Shown: positions 5,135-62,262 of the stretch, in pieces | How the letters are laid out: every line of letters starts with the position of its first letter | Numbering within the stretch: the stretch's first letter is position 1 | Source: a virus | Length of the DNA: 64,000 bases | Direction: 5' to 3' (one strand) | IMG/VR virus record: IMGVR_UViG_3300023208_000004 | Span: 1 to 64,000 of that record | Notes under the pieces: generated by a model | The model's input: the letters and a program-made list of their open reading frames with translations, nothing else | Database searches by the model: none | What the model was told of the DNA's origin: nothing | Position numbers and translations under genes: made by a program

Positions 5135-5413
5135 CTAATTTGTCATGGAAATACCAAAATCCCTGACCTTAAATTCGGGCGAAAGGGAATTGGGTAGATG
5201 CACTTCAAATGGAATATTTTCATTGCCAGCCGCAACATGAGCGTCCCAAGCGTTAGAACAAAGCTCCCGAATGGCTGTTTGGATTTTGTTGGAATATAGC
5301 TTGGAACTGAGTAACCCTAAAATGTGCGCCGTTTCTTCCCGGTCAATGCGAAAAGCGGCGGTATTGATGGTGCCGCTTTGCTCAACCTCGTTGCGACGTT
5401 CTTCAATAATCAT
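5135..5413 (-). pseudogene. truncated rIIA-like GHKL ATPase
   Basis: The 92 aa cover only the start of an rIIA-like protein: IRELCSNAWDAHVAAGN is the N-box of GHKL ATPases and FKVRDFGISMT matches the following ATP-binding segment of the full-length rIIA-like protein at 15010-17208 (VIREYSSNAYDAHIANGN, FKIRDFGVGLS). The frame stops at once after that motif, so the ATP lid and all later domains are missing. Its promoter (5420-5448) is intact, so a short peptide may still be made. Confidence 0.75.
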
Positions 5414-13743: not shown

Positions 13744-14640
13744 TCAACTGACCGCGCTAACGAACCGACCATTCTCATCACGTTTATTGTGATAACGCGA
13801 GCCGTCAGGCTTTCGACCCCATTCATCATCGGCATCGCTGACGTAATAATCCTCATTTAATGCTTCCGTCAAAGGACGGGCATACTCGCCCACGACCTTA
13901 TACTTCGACGTGCGGAGCTTTTGACAGTCACAGTCGTCAGGAACGCTTACAACGTCCGCTGGATTGATTTCGACGATTAGGAGCCTGCCGTCGCTAGGCA
14001 TAAAACCTGTTGCATACTCTAGGGAGCCAGCGTGAAGTCCGCTTGAGCAGCCTCGCGCCCTATCATCGTCAACATAGTTTCGAGAAACCTCAACTTCTGC
14101 ACCAACGCTGTTAAGAATACGGCCAAAACTATCAACCACGCCGCGAAGCACCTTATCGGCTTGTCCAGCAGTAATTGAATAAAAATCACCCTGCACGGCT
14201 TTATAGGCCAAAAAGTTACCGCTAGGAGTCAAAGGCATCTTCTTGTGTTCAAGGAACCTATAAAGCTCCTCAATTGCGCGACGGGACGGGTTGGCATCCA
14301 GCTTAACCATGAAATTCACAAGCGGCTGAAAATCAAGCCCGTCTCGCAAAAAGTCAAGAATCCTGTCGCAGACGTGGTTGTGAACCATAACGCCATTGCG
14401 GAACACGCCAGCGTCCGTCACTGACACATCGCCAGAGCGAAGACGAAAGTTTTCGGCGATTGCCTTTGCTGGTGTGAAAAGCTCGCGGAGCGAGTCATAC
14501 GCCTTTGCTAAAAGAGCCTTTTTCACGGTTTGAAAATGGGCCTGACCAAGACTTTCGGTGAAAACCTTATTGTCTGGATAAGCGACTGTTACTGAATCGT
14601 TAGTTTGAATAACGGCGCGGGGGATGTTGTTTGAGTTCAT
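13744..14640 (-). CDS. rIIB: rIIB-like protein
   Basis: The 298-aa protein carries the rIIB signature blocks: PLTPSGNFLAYKAVQ (about 137-151), VDDDRARGCSSGLHAGSLEYA (central, about 190-210) and LLIVEINPADVVSVPDD (about 219-235). In T4, rIIA and rIIB act together at the host membrane and are needed to overcome lambda RexAB exclusion; biochemical roles remain unclear. The rIIA-like partner lies upstream on the same strand, separated by a 60-aa gene. Own promoter (14674-14702) and A/C-rich leader; ends at a strong terminator. Confidence 0.85.
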   Translation of the reverse strand: MNSNNIPRAVIQTNDSVTVAYPDNKVFTESLGQAHFQTVKKALLAKAYDSLRELFTPAKAIAENFRLRSGDVSVTDAGVFRNGVMVHNHVCDRILDFLRDGLDFQPLVNFMVKLDANPSRRAIEELYRFLEHKKMPLTPSGNFLAYKAVQGDFYSITAGQADKVLRGVVDSFGRILNSVGAEVEVSRNYVDDDRARGCSSGLHAGSLEYATGFMPSDGRLLIVEINPADVVSVPDDCDCQKLRTSKYKVVGEYARPLTEALNEDYYVSDADDEWGRKPDGSRYHNKRDENGRFVSAVS

Positions 14641-15009: not shown

Positions 15010-17208
15010 TTAAGGAGCGACTGAGGCCGTTTTAATTGCGTCCATTTGGTTGACATAATCGGACAATAGTTTTGACCTTTTCTTTTGCTCGTCCGAATAA
15101 TAAGGAAAATCAACAAAAGGAAGCAATGGATACGTCTCAACCATTTCCTTAGCCAACTTTTTAAGGTCGAACGAGGGCGTAAATTTCTTGACATCAAGCG
15201 ACATATTAAATTTTGACAAAAGCTGACAAATAGAATTGATTTCCTTTGCTACCGAATGGTGTTGCATTTTATCCATTGTGTCAGCCCACTTCAAAAAGAC
15301 GCTGCTTTTATCTGTAATGTTTTTTATGGACTCTGTTTTATTGTGCCAACGGGCTGCGTCGCCATTTACGATTTCTTTAAAAGAAGAGGTATCAACATAC
15401 GCTTGAGCGAGATTTTTAGTTTGAACGGTTTTATTCAATTCGTTTTTAATGTAATCCCAAAGAGAAACCATTTTGGGATTTTTCCTAGCCTTTTCAACGG
15501 AACCATTACCCGCGTTTTGAGCCAAAGATTTTTTAAAACCGTAAATAATAGGAGGAACAGGCAACTTAGCCTCGGTCAAAGATTTAATCACCGTATCAAG
15601 TTCAATCGGATGGACTTCCGAACCACTAACATTTATGTAATTAAATCCATAAATTTCAAGATAAACGCCAGAGTCCGTTTCGGGGTCAACATCAATACTT
15701 TCCCACCAATTAGAACGGTTAGAATAGCGACTAAATTTAGTTGAATTAAATTTAAATTCTTTGACCTTATGTTTGGCCTGAGCGGTTGCGCTTCCTCCAC
15801 TTTTAGACTTCGCATAGTCAGGATATTGCGACAAAACCTTATGAGGAAGAGTCGAATATGCGACGATGGGTGCGTCAAACCCATTTTTTAACCACGCCTG
15901 TTTTGTGGCGTCGTCTTTGAAATTAATTAAATAAACAGTCCGAATTGGAGAACTGGTCGCCTTGCTATCCTCAACCAATGGAACGATACGATTCAGTATC
16001 GCGTTCTTGGCATGAATGTCATTCTCAACGAAAACAATGTCAGACTTAGCCACGCAGTAAGAGTCCTCTCCCTGATTTTTAATTTGACCGTGAGAATGAT
16101 TCCAACGGGTAGCATACCTTACAAAGCGAACATCATCAGAGTTATGAAATCCATAATTAGATGAAAGTTTTTGGTTTTTCCACATCATCTTATTGGAAAA
16201 TAACTTACGCAATTGATACAACTCATTTCCAAAATCATCAACCTTGTTCAATAAACAAGCCGCCTCCCAAAGCGTAGTGCAACCAGTGAATTTCGCCGCG
16301 ACAACGGTTTCAAGCTCGGTGAGAATTTTCTTAACCTTGATTTTAATGTTTTTCTTTGTGTGGTCTGAATACTGTAAGGCTTCACGGGAAGCGGCAATTT
16401 CAACATCGCCAATTCCAAATTTAATAACAACGCCAGCACGAATAAGTTCACGCTCTAAGTCATCAAAACCATCAAGAGCATCAATATCAATAGGATAAGA
16501 CACGCATCCCATCAAAGCCGCTGAACCAACGCCAGACCCATAAAATTTCCAGTCAGTTCCCTCAAAGATAATCTTAGGAATGACGATTTTTGGGTTTAGA
16601 CCGACGAATTCGGGCATCACAGGAAACCATTTGAAGAATTCCGTTGCTTTGTCGAGAAAATAGCGTTCCTGTCCAGACTTAACAGGGATAATAATTTCGA
16701 CGCCGTTTGGCTCTTTGGTAGGCTCAGAAGAAATTAAAGCAATTTGCCCGACTTGAGTTTCGTCAATAAAGGCATTGTAACTATTCTTCGCGCCGTTGAT
16801 AAAAGAATTGATTACAAAATTATCACCATAAGCAAAGCCTGATTTTGAACCAAGTCCAAGCTGACCAACAAAGTCATTAGAACTACGCTTAGTTGAGCAT
16901 CCATAGAAAGCGTAAATTTCTTTTACGTCTTCGTGAGAAAGGCCAACGCCAAAATCCCTAATTTTGAAATAGGGATTCATTTGGACTGGTAATGTAATCC
17001 GAATAGGCTGTGAGACATTGCCATTGGCAATGTGAGCGTCGTAAGCGTTGGAACTATACTCACGAATAACAGCTAAAATCTTATCAGAATAAAGCTGATT
17101 ACGAAGAATGTGAAAAATAACGGAGAGATTTTCTGGCTTAATTCCGAAACTAACGGAATCCATTAAACCAGACGTTAAACACTGATTGCTTTTGAGAACA
17201 GGAATCAT
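15010..17208 (-). CDS. rIIA: rIIA-like GHKL ATPase protein
   Basis: The 732-aa protein, the size of T4 rIIA, starts with a GHKL-type ATPase: N-box VIREYSSNAYDAHIANGN (about 45-62), FKIRDFGVGLS (about 75-85) and a glycine-rich VGQLGLGSKSGFAYGD (about 110-125). A middle domain (IEIAASREALQYSD-like segment near 265) follows as in GyrB/Hsp90-related proteins, then a long unclassified C-terminus. Together with the rIIB-like gene it suggests an rII-type anti-exclusion or membrane-integrity system. Promoter 17257-17285; 42-nt A-rich leader. A truncated paralogue occurs at 5135-5413. Confidence 0.85.
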   Translation of the reverse strand: MIPVLKSNQCLTSGLMDSVSFGIKPENLSVIFHILRNQLYSDKILAVIREYSSNAYDAHIANGNVSQPIRITLPVQMNPYFKIRDFGVGLSHEDVKEIYAFYGCSTKRSSNDFVGQLGLGSKSGFAYGDNFVINSFINGAKNSYNAFIDETQVGQIALISSEPTKEPNGVEIIIPVKSGQERYFLDKATEFFKWFPVMPEFVGLNPKIVIPKIIFEGTDWKFYGSGVGSAALMGCVSYPIDIDALDGFDDLERELIRAGVVIKFGIGDVEIAASREALQYSDHTKKNIKIKVKKILTELETVVAAKFTGCTTLWEAACLLNKVDDFGNELYQLRKLFSNKMMWKNQKLSSNYGFHNSDDVRFVRYATRWNHSHGQIKNQGEDSYCVAKSDIVFVENDIHAKNAILNRIVPLVEDSKATSSPIRTVYLINFKDDATKQAWLKNGFDAPIVAYSTLPHKVLSQYPDYAKSKSGGSATAQAKHKVKEFKFNSTKFSRYSNRSNWWESIDVDPETDSGVYLEIYGFNYINVSGSEVHPIELDTVIKSLTEAKLPVPPIIYGFKKSLAQNAGNGSVEKARKNPKMVSLWDYIKNELNKTVQTKNLAQAYVDTSSFKEIVNGDAARWHNKTESIKNITDKSSVFLKWADTMDKMQHHSVAKEINSICQLLSKFNMSLDVKKFTPSFDLKKLAKEMVETYPLLPFVDFPYYSDEQKKRSKLLSDYVNQMDAIKTASVAP

Positions 17209-24820: not shown

Positions 24821-25396
24821 CTATTTTTCTTGAAAATAGCTTGGTTTTAAATCATAAAATATCCACTCTTGACTTTGGCTTTCGCTACCAGAGCCTTTGG
24901 AGCTTTTATTGTCTTTCTCTTTCTGTCTATTATTAAAGCCTTTAACTAGCGTGCCGCGAACTATTTGACCCCGCTGCGTCCTACGAATGACGCTTCTTTC
25001 GCCATCTTTGGATAATTCTTCGTGCAATTTTCGACTGTAAGGCAATGAAAAAAGACGGAGTTCGCTTTCTTTGACGTTATAGCCAAATATTTTCAACGTA
25101 GGCTCTTGATATTTTAGTGTTGGCTGCTCAATAAGAAAATAAATTAAACCGGCGTCTTTTGAGGTTGGGTTCGGTTCTTTAATAACGACAGACCTTATGC
25201 TTAAAATTTCAGGCAAATACTTACTAGACGCTCCCCATCCTAAATAAGTGGGAATCGCCTGCGCCAAAATAATCGTAAATGCAAAGAAACTAACAATAAG
25301 GGCCGTTTTTATTTGCCACTTAACTTTTGAAGAAGATAAAATCCAAAAACTAAGAACAAAAAGACAAAGAAGAAGAACGGATAAAGAAATACTCAT
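24821..25396 (-). CDS. membrane protein with two N-terminal TM, 191 aa
   Basis: Helices at about 4-22 and 29-46 are followed by a large, probably periplasmic, strand-rich domain (EILSIRSVVIKEPNPTSKD, LKIFGYNVKESELRLF) and a Ser/Gln-rich disordered C-terminus. It is the last gene of the operon after the ExbB- and ExbD-like genes, so likely a partner in the same envelope complex. Confidence 0.6.
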   Translation of the reverse strand: MSISLSVLLLCLFVLSFWILSSSKVKWQIKTALIVSFFAFTIILAQAIPTYLGWGASSKYLPEILSIRSVVIKEPNPTSKDAGLIYFLIEQPTLKYQEPTLKIFGYNVKESELRLFSLPYSRKLHEELSKDGERSVIRRTQRGQIVRGTLVKGFNNRQKEKDNKSSKGSGSESQSQEWIFYDLKPSYFQEK

Positions 25397-25421
25397 ATTG
25401 TGCGCTTTTTATTTTTTATGT

Positions 25422-26006
25422 TTATCTCGAACCGTTTTGAGCAATCAGTTCTTGCATTGTGTTAATGTTCACAGCTTTCCCATCTTTGTCAAGACTAAAG
25501 CGAAAAAACGTAATTTCATCCCCGACAGTAATGAAGGTATTTGTTTTACATACAACTTCTAGGAATGGTTTTATTTTTATCAGTTTAACTGAAACTGGCG
25601 TCGGAGAGGCGTCGTCTTTTCTGTAACAATGAACATTAACAACATATTCCCCCACGGTTGAGCCTCTAAGGGTTATAATTTCTTGATTTACTTCCAAAGT
25701 CGCTCCTTGCTGGTTTTGCGACCGACCTAAATTGTCGTGGGCAAGGCTCATAAGAGAGCCTTCGCCACCCTCTCTTCTGTTGAACCCAACTATATGCCCA
25801 TAAGAATCCTTAGTCCATAAATCCATATCGTCATTTGACTTAGCTGGCCATTCCATAATAATAGAATAAACAGCTTGATATTTTAGCGCGGCTTCTGATT
25901 CATTCGGTTTATGGTTGACAACTAAGATAACGGCCAAACAACACAACAACAATGAAAACAAAACGTCCAAAAATGGAGTGACGGATTGATGTCCCTTATA
26001 TTGCAT
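25422..26006 (-). CDS. ExbD/TolR-like membrane protein
   Basis: MQYKGHQSVTPFLDVLFSLL has the short cytoplasmic head and single transmembrane helix with an embedded Asp (FLDVLFSLLLC) that conducts protons in ExbD/TolR. A periplasmic domain of about 150 residues follows, longer than the usual 110. Start ATG 26006 immediately follows the ExbB-like stop (TAATATG), so the two are translated as a pair. Confidence 0.7.
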   Translation of the reverse strand: MQYKGHQSVTPFLDVLFSLLLCCLAVILVVNHKPNESEAALKYQAVYSIIMEWPAKSNDDMDLWTKDSYGHIVGFNRREGGEGSLMSLAHDNLGRSQNQQGATLEVNQEIITLRGSTVGEYVVNVHCYRKDDASPTPVSVKLIKIKPFLEVVCKTNTFITVGDEITFFRFSLDKDGKAVNINTMQELIAQNGSR

Positions 26007-26007
26007 A

Positions 26008-26466
26008 TTATCCTTCCAGAGCTTGTTCGGCGACAAACATTTGTAATCTAAGAATAAAATTCGCCACCATTCCGACAAGAGTAGGGATGAAGGCAGTGCT
26101 TAATCCGTTTTTAATTGCACCAATCAAAGAAGAAACATCATTGCCCATTCCCAAGAACATTAAAACAAGCCCAATAATCGTCGAAAGAAGCCCCAAATCA
26201 AAACACGACTCTGCGGCATATCTTACCCTTGCTATTCTATTTAAAATTTCTAATTTATTGAAGTTAGGTTTATCTTTGTTCCAATCTATATCTTGACAGA
26301 CTTTGCCCATGTAAATTGTCGAGATAACAGCTAAAACAAAAATTGCCAACCCTAAATATGAACTGTCATATTTAATAAGTCCAGTAAATCCTCCCGCCAT
26401 AAAAGTAAAAGAGCATCCAGTCATTGTTGCCGCGAAAATTATTAACCATCTTGTATATGTCGTCAT
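26008..26466 (-). CDS. ExbB/TolQ/MotA-like proton-channel protein
   Basis: The 152-aa protein has three to four transmembrane helices. The C-terminal pair carries the family pattern ESCFDLGLLSTIIGLVLMF and STAFIPTLVGMVANF. ATG 26466 is chosen because it follows the lipoprotein stop region closely. With the ExbD-like gene it should form an ion-driven stator that transmits energy to a periplasmic partner. Confidence 0.72.
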   Translation of the reverse strand: MTTYTRWLIIFAATMTGCSFTFMAGGFTGLIKYDSSYLGLAIFVLAVISTIYMGKVCQDIDWNKDKPNFNKLEILNRIARVRYAAESCFDLGLLSTIIGLVLMFLGMGNDVSSLIGAIKNGLSTAFIPTLVGMVANFILRLQMFVAEQALEG

Positions 26467-26467
26467 A

Positions 26468-27229
26468 TTAATTATTTGCTCTGGGGGTTGAGTTTGTGGT
26501 TTCCGGAACCATGAGAATTTGTATAACTGGACGAATTGGGTCGCCCAAATAGTCTCTATTATAATGCCAAGGTGGGCCAATCCCTACGTCAAAAGCGACT
26601 TTTTCTATCATTTTTTTATATGGTTTGTTGGCGAATCTTTCTGTTTTAAATAAAAAAAAGTTACTAACTCCAACAGCACAGTAAAAATCATAACTCATAT
26701 CAACTGGACGTTCTATTTTTGCTCGCACTAATGATTCAATATCTAAATTACTTGCATGAAGACATTCGTGGATTATTACCAATCCAAAATCTCTCATTGC
26801 ATTTAAATCGTGAATCGTCGGCGGTTTTAGAGAAGAAGTTACACCTATATAAGCTCGCCAAGATTCCCTGTATTCATAAAAAACCGTCATGCCAAGTAAA
26901 GAAGAATTTGTCCCCATGCTTCTCAACATATCGTCTGACCAATACATATTCTGGTAATTACAATTATAACGAAGTCCAGAAATATTTTCAATAAATGAAA
27001 CCGCTAGTTTGGCAAGTTCTATATCTTCATTTGAAAATTTCCTCGAAAATGTCCAATTTATCTTAGAAAATTCATCAATAGAAATTGATTGAATTTTTAC
27101 GTCTGACATTTTTTTACCTGTTACGTCAGCCAATTGAACGAAATTTGGGTTTGGACTTAATGGAATGATAATTTCACGCTTTGAACATCCGACAAACATT
27201 AAAATAAACGCCAAAAAAAGACTCTTCAT
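26468..27229 (-). CDS. lipoprotein with HExxH metallopeptidase motif
   Basis: Signal peptide with lipobox (FLAFILMFVGC-S, Cys about 15) indicates a lipid-anchored exported protein of 253 aa. The motif VIIHECLHASN (about 151-161) is the HExxH zinc-peptidase signature. First gene of the operon followed by ExbB-, ExbD-like and membrane genes. Possible role in cell-wall or envelope protein processing driven by or linked to the ion-powered complex. Confidence 0.72.
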   Translation of the reverse strand: MKSLFLAFILMFVGCSKREIIIPLSPNPNFVQLADVTGKKMSDVKIQSISIDEFSKINWTFSRKFSNEDIELAKLAVSFIENISGLRYNCNYQNMYWSDDMLRSMGTNSSLLGMTVFYEYRESWRAYIGVTSSLKPPTIHDLNAMRDFGLVIIHECLHASNLDIESLVRAKIERPVDMSYDFYCAVGVSNFFLFKTERFANKPYKKMIEKVAFDVGIGPPWHYNRDYLGDPIRPVIQILMVPETTNSTPRANN

Positions 27230-29975: not shown

Positions 29976-31496
29976 TTAAACTCCCAAAGCTTTATATCTT
30001 TCGGAGTTTAATACCTTTAGCATGAATTGATATGGAGTTGTTCCATTCATTACGTATTGGAAGACGCTTGGAGAACATCCGCTTAGTAAAACAACTCCTA
30101 CATCATTCGTTTTAGCGGGAGACTGTCCAACTGTCGCATTTACGTTCCAAAAAACTAACTTAGGCATAGAATATCCGAAGTTTTTATATTGACGAGCTAT
30201 TTCTTTAAAATTTGTTGCGTCATTGTTGCTTGTAGCGGCGTCAAACTGCATATCAGAAACAATATAAATCACAGACGGCATTTCTTTTGCTGGGACTTTA
30301 TTTGCCTTAGCTGTATTTAAAATACGATTAAAAACAGACTGCAAATTTGTATTCATCCCCCAATCTGCGTCATTAATATTGTTTATCTTTTCTTTAATTG
30401 TTGAGCCTTCTACTTTGACCAATTCAGACTCAGCAGAAAACGTCATAAAATAACCGTTAAATGCTCCAACATTCTTTTCGGCAAAATACAAAGCCAAAGA
30501 CACAGATACATCAATTGGGGCTACCGAACCTTTAGTAGAGGTCATTGAACCGGACACATCAGCAACCACCAAGCCATTGTGGGGGTTTTCAGCCAAAAAG
30601 TCTGGCAAATTATTCCACAACAATTCAAGAGTTTTTGAATCGTCGCCCTTACGTAATTTAGCTACAACGTCATAAGGATAAAGCGCCCCGGCGTTTACTT
30701 TGGCTTCTCCTTTTTCTACGGCAGACTGCCAAGTTTGGTAGCCATCGGCATCGTGGCGAGCAAAAGCTTTACAATAAATCATTGAGGCGCGAGAAGGCAC
30801 CTGTTCATAATTTATGACATTCCAATTTCCGCCGCACATCTTTTGTTCTACAACATTTAAATAAGAACGCAAATAACTAAGCGTGTGACGATATTTCTTT
30901 TCAGAAAATCCTAAGTCTTTCGCCAGCATTTTAGCGAGCTTAACGGTTTCTTTGCTGGAGGTATTGATAGAAGGCATCCATTTTGCTAACAATGAAACGG
31001 ATGATTTCTTGTTGTTTTCAACTGCGATATTCCAGTCTTTGATAAGTTGTTTTTTAAGTAAATGGACCACATGAGGCCAAACAATTAAATTTCCTTTAAG
31101 CGCAAACAAATCATCCCAACGTCCATAAAACGGAACATTTTTTAAATTACGAATAACCAAATCTGGATAATTCTTAGCGAGGGCATTTAAGCCAACCCTA
31201 AAAGTTCTGCGTTCTCCCTGTCCTCCTCTTATGTCTCGAAGATAAAAAAGACATTTAAATGCCAACTCAAGATTTTCCTTTGCGGCATTTGAAACTAAAT
31301 CAACAATGACTTCTTCTGAATTTTGACGCAAAGCACCACCTTGCGAAAATAAATCCAAAACATCTGAATTCGATGTAACTGGTGTTAGAGCGCCATTTTC
31401 CGTTGTGGTAAATGTTTGTGAGCGAACGGTTTTCTTCCGTTCGTATGCTGTCACTCCCCCTTGCTCTTTGGTGATTGCCTTTATTAGTTTATTCAT
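29976..31496 (-). CDS. TROVE/DUF2828 (Ro60-like) protein with VWA domain
   Basis: The 506-aa protein. Residues about 55-130 match the TROVE-type helical repeat (FKCLFYLRDIRGGQGERRTF, VPFYGRWDDLFAL). The C-terminal half is a von Willebrand A domain with MIDAS motif LVVADVSGSMTSTKG (about 308-322) and the DUF2828 hallmark VIYIVSDMQFDAATS. Ro60/Rsr proteins bind misfolded RNA and Y RNAs in a ring. It is a monocistronic gene with promoter 31639-31667, a structured 136-nt leader and a strong terminator. Confidence 0.85.
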   Translation of the reverse strand: MNKLIKAITKEQGGVTAYERKKTVRSQTFTTTENGALTPVTSNSDVLDLFSQGGALRQNSEEVIVDLVSNAAKENLELAFKCLFYLRDIRGGQGERRTFRVGLNALAKNYPDLVIRNLKNVPFYGRWDDLFALKGNLIVWPHVVHLLKKQLIKDWNIAVENNKKSSVSLLAKWMPSINTSSKETVKLAKMLAKDLGFSEKKYRHTLSYLRSYLNVVEQKMCGGNWNVINYEQVPSRASMIYCKAFARHDADGYQTWQSAVEKGEAKVNAGALYPYDVVAKLRKGDDSKTLELLWNNLPDFLAENPHNGLVVADVSGSMTSTKGSVAPIDVSVSLALYFAEKNVGAFNGYFMTFSAESELVKVEGSTIKEKINNINDADWGMNTNLQSVFNRILNTAKANKVPAKEMPSVIYIVSDMQFDAATSNNDATNFKEIARQYKNFGYSMPKLVFWNVNATVGQSPAKTNDVGVVLLSGCSPSVFQYVMNGTTPYQFMLKVLNSERYKALGV

Positions 31497-40167: not shown

Positions 40168-40650
40168 TTATGTAAGTTTAGTTTGATTTTGTAATTTGTC
40201 AATAATGTTCGTTGTAGAAATGCCTTCTATATATGAAATTATATTAATTTCGGACCCAATTTTATTAAGGGTAGAATATTCTTGACGGTTAAGTGTATGT
40301 ATTTTGTAATCTCCACCCTTTACATAAATATCTGGCCACGCTTTTTCTAAAAAATCACACGCTAATACATCGTCAAAAACACAAACAAAATCTATCATTT
40401 TTAATGAATCTAAAACTTCCGCCCTATCAAGCTCTGGATTAACTGGGCGATTTTCCCCTTTGAGAATTCTAGTCGCCCTATCTGAATTTATCCCAACGAT
40501 AAGATGAGAGCCAAGTCTTTTTGCTGTTTTTAAATAAGACACATGGCCACGATGTAAAATATCGAATACTCCATTCGTGACGACAACTCTCGCTCCGTTA
40601 AATAGTCCAGATTGCCTTATTATTCCAAGAGTTTTTAAATTAATAACCAT
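40168..40650 (-). CDS. HldE C-terminal-type heptose-1-phosphate adenylyltransferase
   Basis: The 160-aa cytidylyltransferase-fold protein: VVTNGVFDILHRGHVSYLK has the nucleotide-binding H-x-G-H motif, LIVGINSDRATRILKGENRP and IYVKGGDYKI complete the RfaE/HldE domain II pattern. It would join D-glycero-beta-D-manno-heptose 1-phosphate and ATP to ADP-heptose. The matching kinase domain is encoded separately at 50694-51548. Confidence 0.82.
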   Translation of the reverse strand: MVINLKTLGIIRQSGLFNGARVVVTNGVFDILHRGHVSYLKTAKRLGSHLIVGINSDRATRILKGENRPVNPELDRAEVLDSLKMIDFVCVFDDVLACDFLEKAWPDIYVKGGDYKIHTLNRQEYSTLNKIGSEINIISYIEGISTTNIIDKLQNQTKLT

Positions 40651-43837: not shown

Positions 43838-44293
43838 ATGAACAATTTAACCAATACAAATAATATGATTCCTTTAGAAGTCTTTACTATGTTAGGAGGC
43901 AGTATTACTGGATTTTTGTTCCGTTTTATAGCGGAAAGAGCGAAGGACCGACAAGAACAATTTAAAATGATGATAGACAAGTTCAAGGCCGAAGAAGATT
44001 CTCGCAATTCTGCCGTCCAGAGAGTCCCACTTGACGCTGGAAAATGGGTGAGAAGATTGATTGTAGTTTCAATACTTTTTGGCGTTATTCTTGCTCCGTT
44101 TATAATGGCCTTGATGGGAAATTCTGTCATAGTAGAAGTTCAGGAGCGGCATGGGTTTTTCCGTAGTTTATTTTCGTCTGGAACAACGACTAAATTTGTA
44201 GAATTACAAGGTTATCTATTAGTTCCAGAGGTCAGACAAACGCTGACAGCTTTGGTCGGGTTTTACTTTGGACAAAGTGCGGGAAAATGCTAA
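43838..44293 (+). CDS. holin-like membrane protein, 151 aa
   Basis: Three hydrophobic segments: ITGFLFRF (about 22-30), LIVVSILFGVILAPFIMALM (about 73-93) and a C-terminal LTALVGFYFGQSAG. A charged helix (AERAKDRQEQFKMMIDKF) follows the first. The layout resembles 3-TM phage holins, and the next gene has spanin architecture. Stop overlaps the spanin start (TAATG). Confidence 0.6.
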   Translation: MNNLTNTNNMIPLEVFTMLGGSITGFLFRFIAERAKDRQEQFKMMIDKFKAEEDSRNSAVQRVPLDAGKWVRRLIVVSILFGVILAPFIMALMGNSVIVEVQERHGFFRSLFSSGTTTKFVELQGYLLVPEVRQTLTALVGFYFGQSAGKC

Positions 44294-44925
44294 TGAAAAA
44301 AATATTAACAATATTTCTTATATCGTTTTTGACGGGCTGCTCTAGCGTTAAAACTGAGGGCAAACGTGTTGGCGTATTAGATTTAAAGAAAAAAAGCCCA
44401 AGTGTTGCAATCGGAGTTTCCACAATTCAAAAACAAGAATCCAAGCAAGCCCAAAACGCGGTTACAAACAAATCTAATACTATTGTTGCAAAACCTATAA
44501 GTCGCCCACAAGAACCCAAAAAGGGCGCAGAAGTTTTAATGGAACTCGCAAGTCGTTCCCAAATACAAAAAAAAGAAGAAAATAAAACGGCCCAACCAAT
44601 TGTCCCGTCAACCCCTCAATCTCAAAAAAGTGCAACAAATGCAAATATCTCTAAAAACGAAGAAAAAAGCCCAATTAATCTAATAAAAATTGACTCTGAA
44701 AATCAAAATAAAGAAATCGTGAAAGTAGGAGTTTTTGATGTAAATTTAACAAAATTATTGTTATTTTATTTAATTGCATTTTTGGGAGTGGCTGCGGCTT
44801 ATTTTTTAACCGTCTTTGTTTCTAGCTGGTTACGCATTAATAAATTAAAAAATCCATTTAAGAAAAGTCCTTCATCTGACGCTGAGAATCCTTTGGGTGG
44901 GTCTTCCGGTGACGTGGCAGTTTAA
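44293..44925 (+). CDS. u-spanin-like lipoprotein
   Basis: N-terminal signal with lipobox (ILTIFLISFLTGC-S) anchors the protein in the outer membrane. A long Gln/Lys/Ser-rich periplasmic linker (about 20-150) follows, then a transmembrane helix (LLLFYLIAFLGVAAAYFLTV, about 155-175) and a short cytoplasmic tail. An outer-membrane lipid anchor plus C-terminal inner-membrane helix is the architecture of unimolecular spanins such as T1 gp11. It disrupts the outer membrane at lysis and works with the upstream holin-like protein. Confidence 0.7.
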   Translation: MKKILTIFLISFLTGCSSVKTEGKRVGVLDLKKKSPSVAIGVSTIQKQESKQAQNAVTNKSNTIVAKPISRPQEPKKGAEVLMELASRSQIQKKEENKTAQPIVPSTPQSQKSATNANISKNEEKSPINLIKIDSENQNKEIVKVGVFDVNLTKLLLFYLIAFLGVAAAYFLTVFVSSWLRINKLKNPFKKSPSSDAENPLGGSSGDVAV

Positions 44926-47405: not shown

Positions 47406-48080
47406 TTATTCTACCTTTGCGAAAAAATCAAGAGATACATTTTTGTGTGACGCATAGCCAGAGACAAAATTTGTTGTGGCCATTCTTAAATTTTTAAAAG
47501 CTTCATTATTTCCAATAGAAGAATTTACGTAGGCGCAAGTATTTGACTCACTTATTCCTATCGAAGAGGCGTATTGTTTAACCTCTACAATGCCGCCAGC
47601 CCCTACAAATGTAAAAATAAACTTTCCATCTTCCGATAATTGTTTAATCATTTTCTGAATCTGCTCGTGCGACCAACTGCGCGAAGAGTTTTCTTGTCCA
47701 TCTGTAAAAATAGTAACAAGGACTTTTACGTTTTCATTTTCTAAAATATTATTTAGATTTTTTTGTAGTCTCGTCACTGAATAACCGATGGCGTCCCTTA
47801 GTGGGGTGCCGCCATCTGGAACATAACTCTCATATTCAATAAGGGGAACCTTATTAATATCTTTATTGCACACTAAGTAATCAAACCTGTTTTCAGCCAA
47901 AGAATCAAACAACATAATTGTTAATTTCGTTAAAAGTCGCTCATTCTTAGCAGACTCTTTTAGTGTTTTTATTTGTTCGTTGATATTTTTTACAGTCTGC
48001 TCTCGAACCGCGCTCATTGAACCAGACCTGTCAATTAAAAATAAATAATAAAGAATAGGAGTATTTTTTTGTTTTTTCAT
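47406..48080 (-). CDS. VWA-domain protein
   Basis: The 224-aa single von Willebrand A domain: MIDAS DRSGSMSAVREQTVKNI, then VPDGGTPLRDAIGYSVTRL and VTIFTDGQENSSRSW. Stand-alone VWA proteins of this type occur in tellurium-type and phage contexts and usually pair with partner proteins; the next gene (48087) could be the partner. The Ro60-like protein carries a second VWA domain. Confidence 0.75.
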   Translation of the reverse strand: MKKQKNTPILYYLFLIDRSGSMSAVREQTVKNINEQIKTLKESAKNERLLTKLTIMLFDSLAENRFDYLVCNKDINKVPLIEYESYVPDGGTPLRDAIGYSVTRLQKNLNNILENENVKVLVTIFTDGQENSSRSWSHEQIQKMIKQLSEDGKFIFTFVGAGGIVEVKQYASSIGISESNTCAYVNSSIGNNEAFKNLRMATTNFVSGYASHKNVSLDFFAKVE

Positions 48081-50693: not shown

Positions 50694-51548
50694 CTATTCT
50701 TGTGCGTTTGTCAATTCGGGTTTTGTTTGTATTAAATCATATTTAGATTCTAGGTCGGCTTTTGTGACTGCAACAACTCCACGATGAGAAACGGCAATAG
50801 AGGCGGCAAGGTTTGCTTTAAATAGGGCTTTGGCGATGTTTTTGTCTTTTAGGTAAGTTAAAATAAAAGCCGCAAAAAAGGTATCTCCTGCGCCACTCAC
50901 CTCTCTGACTTCGGAAGCTATACCTTCGCACCAAGCTGATGTGTCGCCAGTATTTGTGAGCATTTTACATCCCTTTGCTCCTAATGTAATAATCAAATTT
51001 TTACAGAATTTTTCTGGTGTGCTATTTGTTTTTAAATTATCAGAATATTCTTTTTCATTAATTTTGACAAAATCTATATTTTCTGACCATTTTCCGAGAA
51101 TTTTTTTAGTGTCCATGAAAACGACCCCACCCGCCTTGTGACAGGATTCAGAAATTTTATTTATATCTTCTTCTATAAGAAGACCCTTACAATAGTCTGA
51201 AAAGATTACAGCGTCATGCTGCATTTCTTCTATAACGGTTAAGAGGTCTTCTATTTGAAGCCTCGCGCAACTATCGTTTTCGTCAACTCTTATAATTTGT
51301 TGTCCGGATTTTTCGTCAACATATCTAATTTTTTTTATTGGAGTTTCGTTTTTAACATAGTCTATAACTATTTTTTTTGAATCTCCACCTAAAGACCATA
51401 AATTTGCAAAGGTATTCCCAGCCATGCCAGAGTTTGTTTTTATTTTAATTGGGTTGAAAACTGGAACTGGAGCCTCTGGACAGAGCCTTTTACACTCCCC
51501 GTAAATAAAAACGTCTAAACACTCTTCGCCTATTAAAAGTATTTTCAT
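50694..51548 (-). CDS. HldE N-terminal-type heptose-7-phosphate kinase (PfkB family)
   Basis: The 284-aa PfkB sugar kinase: MKILLIGEECLDVFIYGECK with RLCPEAPVPVF (the RfaE/HldE domain I signature), AGNTFANLWSLGG, anion-hole VREVSGAGDTFFAAFIL. It would phosphorylate D-glycero-beta-D-manno-heptose 7-phosphate at C1. Complementary adenylyltransferase is at 40168-40650. Directly downstream of nrdJ in the same direction. Confidence 0.8.
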   Translation of the reverse strand: MKILLIGEECLDVFIYGECKRLCPEAPVPVFNPIKIKTNSGMAGNTFANLWSLGGDSKKIVIDYVKNETPIKKIRYVDEKSGQQIIRVDENDSCARLQIEDLLTVIEEMQHDAVIFSDYCKGLLIEEDINKISESCHKAGGVVFMDTKKILGKWSENIDFVKINEKEYSDNLKTNSTPEKFCKNLIITLGAKGCKMLTNTGDTSAWCEGIASEVREVSGAGDTFFAAFILTYLKDKNIAKALFKANLAASIAVSHRGVVAVTKADLESKYDLIQTKPELTNAQE

Positions 51549-55216: not shown

Positions 55217-55846
55217 ATGATGACTGATTCAAAAAACACACACTGCTCGCTCCTCGGTTTAACGGGTTTAGCTGGGGCTGGTAAAGACCTTTTGTTTAGC
55301 GAGATAGCGAAATTCACCACCGCTAAACGACTTGCGTTGGCCGACAATCTTAAAATGGAAATGCAAGAATATCTCTTGAAGTGTTTTGGGATAGATATTT
55401 TACACGCGACAAGAGAGCAGAAGGAGTCTGTGAGGGATTTACTTGTTGCTCATGGGAAAGTCCGCCGCAAAATTTCAAAAGGGAGGTATTGGACTAGCTT
55501 GATTACTAAAGAGACAATAAAATACCGCAAAGAATGCTTAACAGTTATAACAGATATACGATACGCAAAATATCCCGAAGACGAACACTTCTGGCTTAAA
55601 AAAATGGGAGGAAAGCTCATTCATCTTAAAAAATTCATCATAAATGAAAACGAAGACCTTATCCCATTAAAATACCCAAATATAGATGAAGCTGAAAACG
55701 ACCCAATTTTACTCTCTTTATCTGATTACCAGATTGAATGGCCAGATATGCAGACCTGTCCAATTCAATATAAAACAAAATATGAAGAAAAATACCAAAA
55801 AGAACTTGAAAAATTCTTCTACTGGCTCAAATTCGGCTCAAAATGA
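55217..55846 (+). CDS. deoxynucleoside-monophosphate-kinase-like protein
   Basis: The 209-aa protein: LGLTGLAGAGKDLLFSEIA is a P-loop of the phage dNMP kinase type (G-x-G-K-D), followed by RLALADNLKMEMQEYL and TVITDIRYAKYPEDE as in T4 gp1-like enzymes. It would phosphorylate dNMPs to dNDPs. First gene of the plus-strand operon. Confidence 0.75.
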   Translation: MMTDSKNTHCSLLGLTGLAGAGKDLLFSEIAKFTTAKRLALADNLKMEMQEYLLKCFGIDILHATREQKESVRDLLVAHGKVRRKISKGRYWTSLITKETIKYRKECLTVITDIRYAKYPEDEHFWLKKMGGKLIHLKKFIINENEDLIPLKYPNIDEAENDPILLSLSDYQIEWPDMQTCPIQYKTKYEEKYQKELEKFFYWLKFGSK

Positions 55847-56420
55847 ATCAGACTTAAAACTTGTTCTTGCCGTTAAGAACGACCAGTGCGAAAAGAGTTT
55901 TTTAGAGTTATCTGAAAAATATTCAAACGTCTTTTATAAGATATGCCAAAAATATACCCCCGCCCTAGTAGTGTCTGTCGTATGTCCAGACGATATTTAC
56001 AAGGAAAAAACATTTATTCTTTATAAATGCGCTCTCTCTTTTGACCCGTCAAGAAATACAAAATTTTCCACTTGGCTAGGGAACTATGCAAGATATATAT
56101 GCTTGCACGCAATTAATGCAAAAAAATTTATTCTACCCTCTACAGATGAAGAAATTTCTCAATTTATTGAAGATAAACAGCAACAAATTAATTACAATTT
56201 TTCAAAGAGGGAGGAAGACTACGAGCTTGTGACCTCTTTGTTATCAAAAATAAACGACGAACGCTTTAGAAAAGTATTAACGCTCAGATACTTAGCTGAC
56301 ACAAAGAAAACTTGGAAACAAATTGCAGAAGATATGGATGTTTCAGTCCAAACAGTTATAACAATTCACAACAGAGCTTTACAGTTTTTAAAAAACAAAA
56401 TAATAAAACTTGAAAAATAA
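55782..56420 (+). CDS. sigma-70-like sigma factor
   Basis: ATG 55782 (MKKNTKKNLKNSS) overlaps the kinase end by 65 nt. Region 2-like RNTKFSTWLGNYARYICLHA and region 4-like LRYLADTKKTWKQIAEDMDV, QTVITIHNRALQFLKNKI. The length, about 212 aa, resembles T4 gp55-type or ECF factors. A second sigma factor in addition to 44961-45575, probably for late or glycan-operon promoters. Confidence 0.72.
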   Translation: MKKNTKKNLKNSSTGSNSAQNESDLKLVLAVKNDQCEKSFLELSEKYSNVFYKICQKYTPALVVSVVCPDDIYKEKTFILYKCALSFDPSRNTKFSTWLGNYARYICLHAINAKKFILPSTDEEISQFIEDKQQQINYNFSKREEDYELVTSLLSKINDERFRKVLTLRYLADTKKTWKQIAEDMDVSVQTVITIHNRALQFLKNKIIKLEK

Positions 56421-56421
56421 T

Positions 56422-57513
56422 ATGCCAAAATATTTACTAAATTTACCAGTAAACGGGGTGTCGTTCGGACAAACATCTATATTGTTACTAAGAACAATTT
56501 TCGACAATAAATATGAACAACCAGAGGGACTGTTTCCTATTGGTAATATTGACCTTTCTACAACAAACTGTCCCCATGATTTTAAACAGTGGATAGATAA
56601 TTTAATAAAAAAAGCATTTACCAATCACAACAGAGACATTCCGTGTTTTAAATTATGGCACCTTAATCCAGACTCTCTACAATCCGTAAGCGACAGAACC
56701 TTACTCATGTCATTTTATGAACTAGACGCTCCCACCCCATTAGAATTAAATGTAGCGAAAAATAACGAAACCATCTTTACGTCAGAATATACATCTAAAA
56801 TTTTCCAAAATCATAATATAGAGAGCCAATATATGCCACTTGGCTTTGATTCATACCACTTTAGCAGACTAAATAAAAAATACTTTGATGATGGCCGAAT
56901 CGTTTTTAACGTAGTTGGTAAGTTCGAGAAACGTAAACATCACGCAAAAGTTATTTCTGCATGGATAAAAAAATATGGGGGTAATCCAAAATATTTTCTA
57001 CAATGTGCTGTTTTTAATCCGTTTTTTGAAAACGCAGACAAACAATATAAACATATCGTCAACCAACTAACGAGGGGGCAACGCATTTTTAACGTCAACT
57101 TCCTCGGACACATGGTTCAAAATTCATTGTATAACGACTTTCTAAACTCTGCCGATATTGTTATAGGCATGAGTGGAGGAGAAGGATGGGGTCTTCCAGA
57201 GTTTCAGTCCGTAGCAATCGGCAAACATTCGGTTATTATGGACGCTCATGGATACAAAGGTTGGGCGACCAAAGAAAATTCAGTTTTAGTTTCTCCGTGC
57301 GGGAAAATAGACGCAACTGACGGATTTTTCTTCCAGAAAGGGGCTATGTCCAACCAAGGGAACATCTTTGACTTTAACGAAGAAGAGTTTCTCTCCGCCT
57401 GCGACAAAGCTATTGAGAGGGTAAACTTATCAAGAGTTAACACAGAGGGATTAAAACTCCAAGAAAAGTTCTCAAAAGAAAAATTCGTAGAAAATATTTT
57501 ATTAAAGATATGA
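56422..57513 (+). CDS. family 4-like glycosyltransferase
   Basis: ATG 56422 directly follows the sigma stop. VFNVVGKFEKRKHHAKVISA and IGMSGGEGWGLPEFQSVAIG (E-x7-E region) are GT4 motifs of GT-B glycosyltransferases. About 363 aa. No signal peptide, so cytosolic. Joined to the next gene by ATGA. Confidence 0.8.
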   Translation: MPKYLLNLPVNGVSFGQTSILLLRTIFDNKYEQPEGLFPIGNIDLSTTNCPHDFKQWIDNLIKKAFTNHNRDIPCFKLWHLNPDSLQSVSDRTLLMSFYELDAPTPLELNVAKNNETIFTSEYTSKIFQNHNIESQYMPLGFDSYHFSRLNKKYFDDGRIVFNVVGKFEKRKHHAKVISAWIKKYGGNPKYFLQCAVFNPFFENADKQYKHIVNQLTRGQRIFNVNFLGHMVQNSLYNDFLNSADIVIGMSGGEGWGLPEFQSVAIGKHSVIMDAHGYKGWATKENSVLVSPCGKIDATDGFFFQKGAMSNQGNIFDFNEEEFLSACDKAIERVNLSRVNTEGLKLQEKFSKEKFVENILLKI

Positions 57514-58178
57514 ATACACCTCCCCAAATTAACCTAAGAACCTTCACAAACGACCAGTGGGTTTTAGATAAAGTTCTTTATGGAAATTTTTACAAAATTA
57601 AGGGACTACCTAACGACAAAGCTGTTATGGATATAGGGGCTCATATTGGGTATTTTTCAATCCTTTCTGTGCTTAAAGGGGCGGGAAAAGTTTACGCATA
57701 TGAACCATTTGTAGAAAATTACGAACTACTAATTAACAACATCAAAGATTATAAAAAACAAATAATCCCATATTCTATAGGAGTCTATCCCACAGAATCT
57801 AATATTAAAATAAACTATCCAGTGTTTAACAAAGAAAATTACTACGACTTTAACAATCTTCCAATAGAGCAATCCCAAGATTTTTATAGGACGCTATGCC
57901 TTCCCCTCGATAAAATATTACAACAATACGACGACTCTTTTTCTTTACTTAAAATAAGTTTAGGATATGCGGAAAATGAGATTATAAGAACCTGTGAAAA
58001 TATTAACAAATTTGAGAATATCTGCTGCGAAACTCAATGCGAACCGCAAGAAGTTCAAAAAACTCTTGAATATCTTGGGTCTAAAGGTTTAAAAGACTCT
58101 TGGTTTACACAAACCGACGAAGAAACGTTCGTCTTTATGGCGTCAAAAGATAAAAAAAACAGTGTTTTTGAACTATAA
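57510..58178 (+). CDS. FkbM-family methyltransferase
   Basis: The 222-aa protein: AVMDIGAHIGYFSILSVLKG (SAM motif I), VYAYEPFVENYELLINNI and LLKISLGYAENEII. FkbM enzymes O-methylate sugars or small molecules. Starts by ATGA overlap with the glycosyltransferase. Confidence 0.8.
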   Translation: MNTPPQINLRTFTNDQWVLDKVLYGNFYKIKGLPNDKAVMDIGAHIGYFSILSVLKGAGKVYAYEPFVENYELLINNIKDYKKQIIPYSIGVYPTESNIKINYPVFNKENYYDFNNLPIEQSQDFYRTLCLPLDKILQQYDDSFSLLKISLGYAENEIIRTCENINKFENICCETQCEPQEVQKTLEYLGSKGLKDSWFTQTDEETFVFMASKDKKNSVFEL

Positions 58179-58183
58179 TAAAA

Positions 58184-58531
58184 ATGCCACAATATATATA
58201 CTCCCACCCAGAAACGAGCGAAACAATAGAAGTCTTTCAATCTATGAAAGACGTGCATGAATATATAGACGGCAAAGGAACTAAATGGAACCGAGTGTTT
58301 TTAGCTCCAACTGCATCAATAGACACAAAAATAGACTGTGATTCTTTTTCTGACTTCTCTAGGAAAACAGAAAACAAAAATATGAAACTCGGAGATATGT
58401 GGGATTTATCTGGAGAACTAAGTGACAAAAGAATTAAAAGAAAAGGTCACGACCCAATCAAAGAAAATGCAATAAAAAACTATAGCAAAAAATGCAAAGG
58501 AAAACCACACCCACAAGCGTATGAAAACTAA
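58184..58531 (+). CDS. FmdB-like conserved phage protein, 115 aa
   Basis: MPQYIYSHPETSETIEVFQS, KWNRVFLAPTASIDTKIDC and LGDMWDLSGELSDKR match a conserved phage family that resembles FmdB zinc-ribbon starts but lacks the Cys pairs. Function unknown. Overlaps the SET gene by 11 nt. Confidence 0.65.
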   Translation: MPQYIYSHPETSETIEVFQSMKDVHEYIDGKGTKWNRVFLAPTASIDTKIDCDSFSDFSRKTENKNMKLGDMWDLSGELSDKRIKRKGHDPIKENAIKNYSKKCKGKPHPQAYEN

Positions 58532-59360
58532 ACTTCACAATTGCGGCAGGCTTGAAGTAAGACAATCCTCAATAGAAGGATATGGAGTCTTTGCGACAGA
58601 AGAGATAAAACAAGGAGAAATTCTTGAGGAGATTCCTTTCATTTTATTCCCGCAATATACAGCTTTAGGTAAAAACTTCTACGAATACTTGGACGCAAGC
58701 AATTTACTTAAAGAAAACGTCAAAACGACTGAATTTCTAAGAAAAAATCTTAAATTCAAAGAGCCAGAAAAATACTACTTTAAATGGAGTCCGCCAGAAC
58801 CAAATATTAATGGAGAGAACATTACATACTGCGTATTACCTCTGGGGTTTGGTCCAATATATAATTCTTCAAACACAGAAAACAACGCTGGCTGGCAAAT
58901 TGACGACAATCTTTTTACATTTATAGCAGAAAAAGACATACAAAAAGACGAAGAAGTTCGAACCTTTTATGGATATTTCTTAGGAGATGATGGGTCAATC
59001 TGGAATGCGGACCAAGTTTTTTTCTTTGGGATGGACAAAGACGGAGAAGGAAAAGTTAGACTTAAAAGCTTGAGATTCAACAGTCAAGAGGCAGTAGAAA
59101 AATCAAAAAAAGACACGGGTTTTTCTATGCTTCAATCAATACTTGCGGAAAATAACAAAGGAGTCGTCCTTAAAAAAATAAACGGAATAACAACTACCGG
59201 AGAGAAGAAGTTTTCGTTTGAATTTCCAGAATACTACCCATTAAGGTTTTTTTACGCAAAGATAAACGAATTTAAAAGGTCAACGCTCCCAATGGTTGAA
59301 TTCTCAATCGAAAACCCAAAAGAAAAAACAATTCAATCAATTGTAATTAAAAATGGATAA
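58521..59360 (+). CDS. SET-domain protein
   Basis: The 279-aa protein. IEGYGVFATEEIKQGEILEE is the SET N-terminal G-x-G strand, LGFGPIYNSSNTENNAGW corresponds to the N-H/N-x-x-x-N SAM-binding loop and DEEVRTFYGYFLGDD to the C-terminal D-E-x-x-x-x-Y motif. The C-terminal about 100 aa are unrelated. SET proteins methylate lysines; phage copies are rare. Partner unknown, possibly a virion or host protein. Confidence 0.75.
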   Translation: MKTKLHNCGRLEVRQSSIEGYGVFATEEIKQGEILEEIPFILFPQYTALGKNFYEYLDASNLLKENVKTTEFLRKNLKFKEPEKYYFKWSPPEPNINGENITYCVLPLGFGPIYNSSNTENNAGWQIDDNLFTFIAEKDIQKDEEVRTFYGYFLGDDGSIWNADQVFFFGMDKDGEGKVRLKSLRFNSQEAVEKSKKDTGFSMLQSILAENNKGVVLKKINGITTTGEKKFSFEFPEYYPLRFFYAKINEFKRSTLPMVEFSIENPKEKTIQSIVIKNG

Positions 59361-60297
59361 TTTTAAGAATATTTCTGTTAGACTTGAAGGTGGCATGGGG
59401 GATTGTTTACTAGGAAACAGATTTATCCCAGCGATAAAAGAAGCGTATCCAAACTCTGAAATTACAGCATTTATAGATTCAGAGGGAAAAACATTTCAAA
59501 AAGAAATTTTGGACTGCTGTTATCCATCATTCTACAAAGAAATAAAGATAATTCCAAACAAAAAATATAAAGATTTTTGGGTAGATTGTCAATTCGGAAC
59601 AGACAATTACTATGGGGCGTTAGAAAACGTTCCAGACAAAATACTATCAGAGATGTTATCTTATGACAAGTTTTACGACTTACACATTGACTCTCTTAAA
59701 TGGACTAAGAATAAAACTTGGATAAAATATCATAGATTTTTTCCAAAGCCCCATGTGGAACCACTACAGACCCCAAACAGATATATTGTGCTCCACCTAG
59801 TTTCTTCAACGTCAGTTGGACACAGAATGGAAGAATGGTATATCGTAAGACTTATTAAGGAGCTTTTAGAGAGAGGGAACTTTAACATAAAAATAATATC
59901 AACCCCAGACACAAATCATTTTTACCAAAACTTAGAATCTAAAAGGGTAGAAATCATAAACGCCAATATAAAAACCATTGTTTCGATTATAGGAGGTGCG
60001 GCGGGAATGATTTCTACTGATAGCGGATTCCGCTACCTTGCTTATGGATATAGTATCCCAACCCTCATATTCTCCAAACAAAGTGTCCAGCCATTTTCAG
60101 CAATTCCTAGTCACCAGATAAGATGGCTCATTTTTCCAGAAACGTGTTTTCCGCTACATTACGACGCAACAAGGGTTTCGGAGACATTGCTAAACTGTAT
60201 AAAAAATCCGGCGCAAATTTTAGTTCCGTATGTTTCAGATTTTAATAGTCAGTGTGTTTATAGGAATTATATAATAAATACCGAAAGGACAAAATAA
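59353..60297 (+). CDS. GT9-like glycosyltransferase (heptosyltransferase-like)
   Basis: The 314-aa GT-B-type protein: VRLEGGMGDCLLGNRFIPAI opens like family 9, IIGGAAGMISTDSGFRYLAY (donor-site D-x-G/H region) closes the core. GT9 enzymes transfer heptose from ADP-heptose. The sequence is divergent and the donor cannot be fixed. Confidence 0.65.
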   Translation: MDNFKNISVRLEGGMGDCLLGNRFIPAIKEAYPNSEITAFIDSEGKTFQKEILDCCYPSFYKEIKIIPNKKYKDFWVDCQFGTDNYYGALENVPDKILSEMLSYDKFYDLHIDSLKWTKNKTWIKYHRFFPKPHVEPLQTPNRYIVLHLVSSTSVGHRMEEWYIVRLIKELLERGNFNIKIISTPDTNHFYQNLESKRVEIINANIKTIVSIIGGAAGMISTDSGFRYLAYGYSIPTLIFSKQSVQPFSAIPSHQIRWLIFPETCFPLHYDATRVSETLLNCIKNPAQILVPYVSDFNSQCVYRNYIINTERTK

Positions 60298-60884
60298 TGA
60301 AAAAAATCATTACAGCAAGCGAATATTTTTACCATCCATACAACGGAACGGTAAACAACGAAAGATGTATCGAAATCCCACTCGCGGAACGATATATCAA
60401 AACTCTCGAAGACGATATTATTGAAATTGGAGCCGTTTCCCCATATTACAGAGAGAATAAACACAAAGTTTATGACCCATACGACACGCACCCGAAATCA
60501 ACAAAACTACACGCAGAAGCTCTAAATATAAAAAGCAAGAATATTCTCTCCATATCAACGATAGAGCATTTTGGAAATACAAGAGGCTTTGGTTGTAATT
60601 TTATTACAGATGAAAAATTCGCCTCTCAAAACTTCCTTGAGAAACTTGTTGAAGAAGCGGCGTCGTTTTTTGTCAGTGTGCCAATACACGCACACCCAAT
60701 ATTTGACATTTACATCAAACAAAATCTTAAAAAATTTAATTGGTTTTCTTATGTAAAGCGGCAACAATTCCCTCCGATTTGGGAACTCTGTGAAAACGAA
60801 AGCTGTTTTAATCACAAATATGCCAGCCCGTTTGAGTGCGCCAATGCGGTAATTTTCTTAACAAAAGGGGTGGCGCTTGAATAA
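60297..60884 (+). CDS. class I SAM-methyltransferase-like protein, 195 aa
   Basis: IIEIGAVSPYYRENKHKVYD replaces a degenerate SAM motif I, YDPYDTHPKSTKLHAEALNI and ILSISTIEHFGNTRGFG resemble motifs II-IV of the methyltransferase-11/23 class. Overlaps the flanking genes by 1 and 8 nt. Confidence 0.6.
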   Translation: MKKIITASEYFYHPYNGTVNNERCIEIPLAERYIKTLEDDIIEIGAVSPYYRENKHKVYDPYDTHPKSTKLHAEALNIKSKNILSISTIEHFGNTRGFGCNFITDEKFASQNFLEKLVEEAASFFVSVPIHAHPIFDIYIKQNLKKFNWFSYVKRQQFPPIWELCENESCFNHKYASPFECANAVIFLTKGVALE

Positions 60885-62257: not shown

Positions 62258-62262
62258 ACCCA

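Follow-up and report, generated by a model that had tools for sequence, protein, structure and literature searches.

The B-D-C module of phages and bacteria, a probable family of stator-type, ion-driven membrane energizers

In a viral sequence of 64,000 nucleotides (the window, part of a record of 164,097 bp), three adjacent genes, B, D and C, encode a short channel subunit of the MotA/TolQ/ExbB family, a protein with a single transmembrane helix carrying a stator-type Asp, and a protein with two transmembrane helices; the same genes, in the same order and with recurring topologies, are widely conserved in bacteria and in a large number of mutually unrelated phages. They probably constitute a family of ion-driven inner-membrane energizers in the class of MotAB, ExbBD and TolQR, which phages would use for remodeling or protecting the host envelope. 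Family databases and open-licence papers on 5:2 motors and relatives of MotAB hold no description of these genes, and we conclude that, judged against these libraries and papers, the module is undescribed and is common to phages and bacteria. The original prediction of a phage-encoded, ion-driven, stator-type membrane complex is supported by the family of B, the Asp of D and the conserved neighborhood; the molecular activity is well supported by the anatomy of the subunits, and the role in infection is one that we infer.

Known ion-driven machines of the stator type (Mot, Tol, Ton, Gld, Agl and Zor) provide the power for motility, for the uptake of nutrients, for maintenance of the outer membrane and for defence. 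In MotAB, ExbBD and TolQR, ions move between the ring of A subunits and an Asp on the inner helix, as a result of which parts of the complex turn or shift.

The locus and its surroundings

All four reading frames of the locus are open and lie on the minus strand in the order HExxH lipoprotein, B, D, C, with gaps of 1 bp (lipoprotein to B), 1 bp (B to D) and 25 bp (D to C); the four adjacent, tightly spaced genes that had been proposed are thus borne out. Gene calls are based on open reading frames throughout. The features are:

27229-26468, minus strand: predicted HExxH lipoprotein, 253 aa, accessory, outside the conserved core
27185..27187, minus strand: Cys15 of the lipoprotein, predicted lipidation site in a lipobox-like FVGC/S (LLGC in the related contig L002)
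26756..26770, minus strand: HECLH, a zinc-peptidase-type motif at lipoprotein residues 154-158, conserved in L002
26466-26008, minus strand: gene B, 152 aa, short four-helix channel subunit of the MotA/TolQ/ExbB family
26179..26181, minus strand: Thr96 of B in the third transmembrane helix, counterpart of the pore Thr of ExbB/TolQ
26080..26097, minus strand: residues 124-129 of B (TAFIPT) in the fourth transmembrane region, with Thr124, Ala125 and Thr129 nearly invariant
26006-25422, minus strand: gene D, 194 aa, one transmembrane helix with a stator-type Asp and a predicted periplasmic β-sandwich
25965..25967, minus strand: Asp14 of D at the cytoplasmic end of the transmembrane helix, nearly invariant
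25396-24821, minus strand: gene C, 191 aa, two transmembrane helices and a predicted periplasmic domain, variable linker and conserved C-terminal motif

Both 1-bp junctions consist of a stop codon, a single base and an ATG. The most likely starts are the ATG at 26466 for B (giving 152 aa), rather than the TTG at 26580, and the ATG at 26006 for D (giving 194 aa), rather than the TTG at 26078. A profile search finds one copy of B in the whole record, and no Rfam RNA lies near the module in the window.

Several other genes of the window are of note. Two vWA-type proteins are encoded at 29976..31496 and 47406..48080 (minus strand), the first of them Ro60/TROVE-like by eye; the genes at 15010..17208 and 13744..14640 (minus strand) by eye resemble T4 rIIA, a GHKL-type ATPase, and rIIB, with a second, short rIIA-like frame at 5135..5413. 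Also by eye, a heptose-kinase-like gene (50694..51548, minus strand), a cytidylyltransferase-like gene (40168..40650, minus strand) and a run of heptosyltransferase- and methyltransferase-like genes (55217..63412, plus strand) possibly form a phage-encoded set for the modification of LPS or glycans. Two overlapping genes on the strand opposite to their surroundings (43838..44293 and 44287..44925, plus strand), one for a small membrane protein and the other for a predicted lipoprotein, could be a lysis pair of the holin/spanin type. The window also holds 15 tRNAs and, beside a tRNA-Glu, a phage tmRNA (50156..50542, minus strand) with an unusually long tag, ANKKALFAAVGKGVIRASRKLAVA. Shine-Dalgarno-like motifs are few (12% against 7% in shuffled sequences, over all window frames of at least 120 aa) and upstream regions are A-rich, a pattern that might point to a host able to do without Shine-Dalgarno sequences, for example one of the Bacteroidota.

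Anatomy of the three subunits

B belongs to the MotA/TolQ/ExbB family, as had been predicted: the window protein scores 30.7 bits against Pfam PF01618 (MotA_ExbB; cut-off 22.9), and a profile built from seven phage B proteins retrieves 21 PDB matches, all of them MotA, PomA, ExbB, TolQ or ZorA chains or chains with a MotA/TolQ/ExbB domain. The Pfam cut-off is also passed by the B proteins of six other loci (L005, L007, L008, L025, L084 and L122), Rhizobium phages and bacteria among them; p038 of phage 16-3, at 12.4, lies below it. Four transmembrane helices are predicted in 27 of 34 members, and the most positively charged loop is the one between the second and third, which is the arrangement of MotA, at a length of only about 25 residues. 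In the alignment of these 34 sequences G95, T96, T124, A125 and T129 are nearly invariant, so that B has two pore-lining helices with conserved Thr and Ala residues, as in the PF01618 family. Searched as single sequences, B and C retrieve no relatives either from 50,697 phage records or from IMG/VR, D being the sensitive bait; B, D and C are all without a PHROGs family.

D combines a stator-type helix with a periplasmic domain of another kind. All 37 aligned members have one transmembrane helix, and the Asp at its start is present in effectively all of the 146 D proteins; a script scores it in 142, the four misses being, by eye, effects of start codon, window choice or truncation. One bacterial D (locus L221, genome G387; genes at 1063-1686 and 1699-2753) has lost the Asp of its helix (DPITAVLF) and is accompanied by two C genes in tandem. 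When D is compared by hhalign with the ExbD proteins of genomes that also carry B-D-C, only a segment of 14 residues around the Asp aligns, SVTPFLDVLFSLLL to DITPMLDVVFIMLI, with an E-value of 0.005; the probability is only 7% because the aligned segment has just 14 columns. The AlphaFold2 model of D, built with 37 related sequences (pLDDT 88), has a helix at 10-31 and an all-β domain at 47-182. A fold search with this model gives no confident match in the PDB (the best is DUF4425, E 0.014), Foldseek returns no ExbD, TolR or MotB among the matches listed, and the matches in BFVD are distant and mostly to unnamed proteins. Pfam ExbD (PF02472) matches no D from the window, from Rhizobium phages or from bacteria. 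Membership of D in ExbD/TolR is rejected on the lack of a PF02472 match, the all-β periplasmic model and a domain that does not align with ExbD; a relation to TerD is also rejected (hhalign E 0.05, probability 1%). Since the alignment with ExbD is confined to the Asp helix and the model is all-β, D would be stator-like in its helix and unlike ExbD, TolR and MotB in the periplasm. Of the ExbD/TolR-like partner originally proposed, the single helix with its Asp thus stands, while the periplasmic part has to be given up, the modeled domain lacking the mixed α/β fold of ExbD/TolR.

The closest sequence relation of D is to DUF2135/YfaP, to which it appears weakly related, at or just below threshold. 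In a six-frame search PF09906 (DUF2135) scores 22.3 with one bacterial D, against a cut-off of 22.0, and three others are weaker; whole-protein scores of D remain below the cut-off and, reciprocally, the D model matches a YfaP-like protein.

These properties also bear on the possibility that the phages have acquired an ExbBD or TolQR pair from their hosts, which then feeds host TonB or TolA. The membership of B in the same Pfam family and the shared Asp segment of D would fit this, but D has no ExbD match in Pfam and, outside that segment, fails to align with ExbD, its predicted β-sandwich already contradicts such an origin, C is specific to the family, and host genomes with B-D-C carry separate ExbD genes of their own; we therefore consider it very improbable.

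C has two predicted transmembrane helices in 36 of 36 members, in keeping with the two-helix protein first proposed as the fourth gene of the locus. Charges are absent ahead of the first helix, and the short loop that joins the two helices has about two positive residues, so that by the positive-inside rule the C-terminal part is predicted to be periplasmic. The tail has a variable linker of Gly, Lys and charged residues, after which most members end in a conserved motif such as YxLPxxxxxxK. Neither Pfam and NCBIfam nor PHROGs and PADLOC give C a match of meaningful score, and the PDB has none either, whether searched by sequence or by fold (no fold match below an E-value of 0.7).

Among known systems, B-D-C resembles MotAB and PomAB in its four-helix A subunit with conserved pore Thr and Ala, the best PDB matches of B being MotA chains; it differs in that B lacks the torque-generating cytoplasmic domain, D lacks the OmpA-like peptidoglycan-binding domain, and there is a third gene, C. 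With ExbBD-TonB and TolQRA-Pal it shares the combination, in one operon, of an ion-driven A subunit, a one-helix Asp partner and further envelope proteins, and the working principle is likely to be the same; however, the periplasmic domain of D is a predicted DUF2135-like β-sandwich, and C is not recognizable as TonB or TolA. DUF2135 proteins of the YfaP type are linked to D by the borderline reciprocal matches, whereas L222, the YfaP-like member that was read, is secreted and has no stator helix. To Zorya the likeness lies in the MotA-type A subunit, ZorA profiles being the nearest named defence match of B; the long ZorA tail, the peptidoglycan-binding domain of ZorB, and ZorC, ZorD and ZorE are all missing. 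Membership in Zorya is rejected, as PADLOC gives a weak ZorA match for B and none for D, C or the lipoprotein.

Distribution in viruses and bacteria

A relative of the locus is found in a viral contig of 174 kb (L002), which has all four proteins again at 63-69% identity, although other genes have come to separate B from D and D from C; one of those between B and D encodes another envelope-active enzyme, a polysaccharide deacetylase (PF01522, 9906-10604). With D as bait, 27 of 50,697 phage records give significant matches, all from phages of Rhizobium or Sinorhizobium; Xanthomonas and Pseudomonas matches (E 4-8) are rejected as noise. The isolates include T4-like Pootjesviridae (RHph_N34, AF3), RHph_I1_18 (171 kb), RHph_N3_19 (68 kb) and the temperate phage 16-3, where the module corresponds to p038, p040 and p042. 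Each of five Rhizobium and Sinorhizobium phages that were read has B-, D- and C-like genes in order, none of them with an annotated function; under the names searched, the module genes go unmentioned in a publication on AP-16-3, a 16-3-like phage. In RHph_I1_18, a gene annotated as vWA lies some 2 kb downstream of C.

In IMG/VR the D profile identifies 64 loci classed as viral, in the order B-D-C; B accompanies D in 63 of them and C does so in 62, and the missing genes are mostly cut off at contig ends. The neighbors of the putative stator are thus conserved, and stator pairs, which had been taken to be rare in phages, occur as B-D-C in dozens of contigs classed as viral, and in bacteria as well. 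Recurrence in L002 and in these viral and bacterial loci is more than chance would give. The median gaps, -7 and 0 bp, are typical of translational coupling. The genes around the module differ between viral groups and belong to DNA replication, structure or lysis; B, D and C therefore travel as a unit, and these mixed neighborhoods indicate no single role. In one group of contigs (L016-L023, L027, L030), DnaK, Hsp20, ClpS and NifU/SufT-like genes are seen by eye beside B-D-C, and some of these contigs may be bacterial and misclassified; the case for phages is independent of this group, because isolated Rhizobium phages carry the module.

In a collection of bacterial genomes the D profile yields 52 loci, mostly in SAR116 species and otherwise in Salinisphaera, Endozoicomonas, Oceanobacter, Parathalassolituus and Devosia; B lies next to D in all 52 and C in 51. 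D is present in 40 of 289 alphaproteobacterial and 28 of 229 gammaproteobacterial genomes sampled, or about one in eight. The three genes are in order in the regions inspected, with B in 20 of 20 and C in 19 of 20 from alphaproteobacteria (one C is lost at a contig end) and the complete module in five of five from gammaproteobacteria. Except for one locus on an Azospirillum plasmid, no bacterial locus entered the building of the B, D and C models, and the linkage in bacteria is therefore an independent result. In a concatenated tree of B and D, obtained by a quick method and with long branches, there are at least three changes between phages and bacteria, and the SAR116 copies group with one phage clade (99% SH-aLRT), which makes a past transfer of the module between hosts and phages probable. 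In the SAR116 loci compared (L084, L099, L107, L110 and others) its position is the same throughout, next to a luciferase-like monooxygenase, which suggests a core cellular role there.

This distribution is relevant to the view that B-D-C is a Zorya-like device for anti-phage defence or superinfection exclusion, sensing disturbances of the envelope and responding through ion-driven movement. The patchy occurrence in both proteobacterial classes, the movement between phages and bacteria and the varied positions in phage genomes are all common for defence genes, and ZorA profiles are, besides MotA, the nearest named ones to B. Yet no gene resembling ZorB, ZorC, ZorD or ZorE adjoins the module, D and C have no match in PADLOC, B lacks the long cytoplasmic tail, and the constant chromosomal place in SAR116 is unlike that of a defence island; on balance we regard this explanation as unlikely.

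Exported partners and proposed function

The position immediately upstream of B is occupied by a gene for a predicted exported protein in 7 of 21 dereplicated viral loci, against 10 of 351 genes elsewhere (Fisher p 9e-6, from counts that rest on a crude signal-peptide script). The proteins concerned are mostly unrelated to each other, comprising the HExxH lipoprotein, an Rz-like spanin and small periplasmic proteins; there is therefore no single conserved partner. In phage 16-3 a Trypsin_2 protein, missed by the script, is encoded close upstream, and in seven bacterial loci C is followed, directly or at a short distance, by a member of a DUF3108-like lipoprotein family. As further observations, the upstream exported protein of L065 is ClpP/SppA-like by eye and has no Pfam match, and a vWA protein (PF00092) is encoded directly upstream of B in L031 (1303-2349). 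We infer that B-D-C has exported partners that are interchangeable.

The HExxH lipoprotein has no significant family in Pfam, PHROGs or PADLOC, and it is found only in the window phage and L002, both of which have the HECLH motif. A peptidase as a conserved fourth member of the module is rejected on this ground, and the pairing of the stator with a lipoprotein protease, put forward originally, does not hold as a general property, there being a single relative. The lipoprotein might even be an unrelated neighbor of a core that acts without it, possibly in the handling of small solutes or metals. Its confinement to two viruses would agree with this, as would the genomic surroundings in several alphaproteobacteria, where the module is near genes of PQQ-dependent alcohol dehydrogenase systems (TIGR03863, TIGR03864, TIGR03866, TIGR03075), within about 11 kb in G004, G086, G163 and G237; the phage-like class of D co-occurs with TIGR03866 in 14 of 21 alphaproteobacterial genomes, against 23 of 268 others (Fisher 2e-9, in a test that ignores phylogeny). 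Against it stand the translational coupling of the lipoprotein to B across 1 bp, its retention directly upstream of B in L002 despite the genes inserted further down, and the enrichment of exported proteins in this slot. An unrelated lipoprotein would not conflict with the energizer reading of the core and, judged separately, is a serious possibility, if somewhat short of an even chance.

The spanin brings lysis into consideration. In one viral group an Rz-like spanin lipoprotein (phrog_812, E 1e-11) is encoded directly upstream of B, as would be expected if the module were a lysis aid that, by ion leak or force, collapses the membrane potential or disrupts the outer membrane together with spanins. 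In most groups, however, the module is away from recognizable lysis genes; bacterial chromosomes carry copies outside any phage context, at a constant place in SAR116, which argues against a lethal leak, and a simple leak would not require the conserved periplasmic domains that D and C possess. A function in lysis thus seems distinctly improbable, less credible even than one in defence.

For an ion-driven energizer of the envelope, the reading we favor, the following mechanism can be proposed. B, probably a pentamer, would form the ring and, with its conserved Thr residues, the path of the ions; D, probably a dimer, would be located inside this ring, with the Asp of its helix as the ion-carrying residue and its β-sandwich in the periplasm; and C would be a third, family-specific subunit contributing a periplasmic domain and tail. 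B and D possess what such a mechanism requires; the flow of ions would move D, together with C, against B, and the force would reach a periplasmic or outer-membrane partner through the β domain of D and through C. In the window phage the best candidate for this partner is the HExxH lipoprotein, whose gene ends 1 bp ahead of B; in other members it may be one of the other exported proteins in the same slot. The most likely use to the phage would be to remodel or protect the envelope of the host during infection, which is our first choice of role, with anti-phage defence second and lysis third. Points against an energizer are that B has no stator cytoplasmic domain, that the D of G387 has lost the Asp and that no single partner is conserved.

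More tentatively, B-D-C might be a self-contained new class of ion-driven complexes that serves phages as an auxiliary module, exerting force on or remodeling the host envelope through varied exported partners, among them a zinc-peptidase lipoprotein, a trypsin-like protease and a spanin as plug-in components; this fuller picture is possible and, as a whole, rather doubtful.

A further stator family with second and third subunits of its own would widen the list of Mot, Tol, Ton, Gld, Agl and Zor, and would raise the tractable question of why a virus needs an envelope motor of its own. Since the module is present in isolated phages of Rhizobium and Sinorhizobium, including the classical temperate phage 16-3, this question is testable now.
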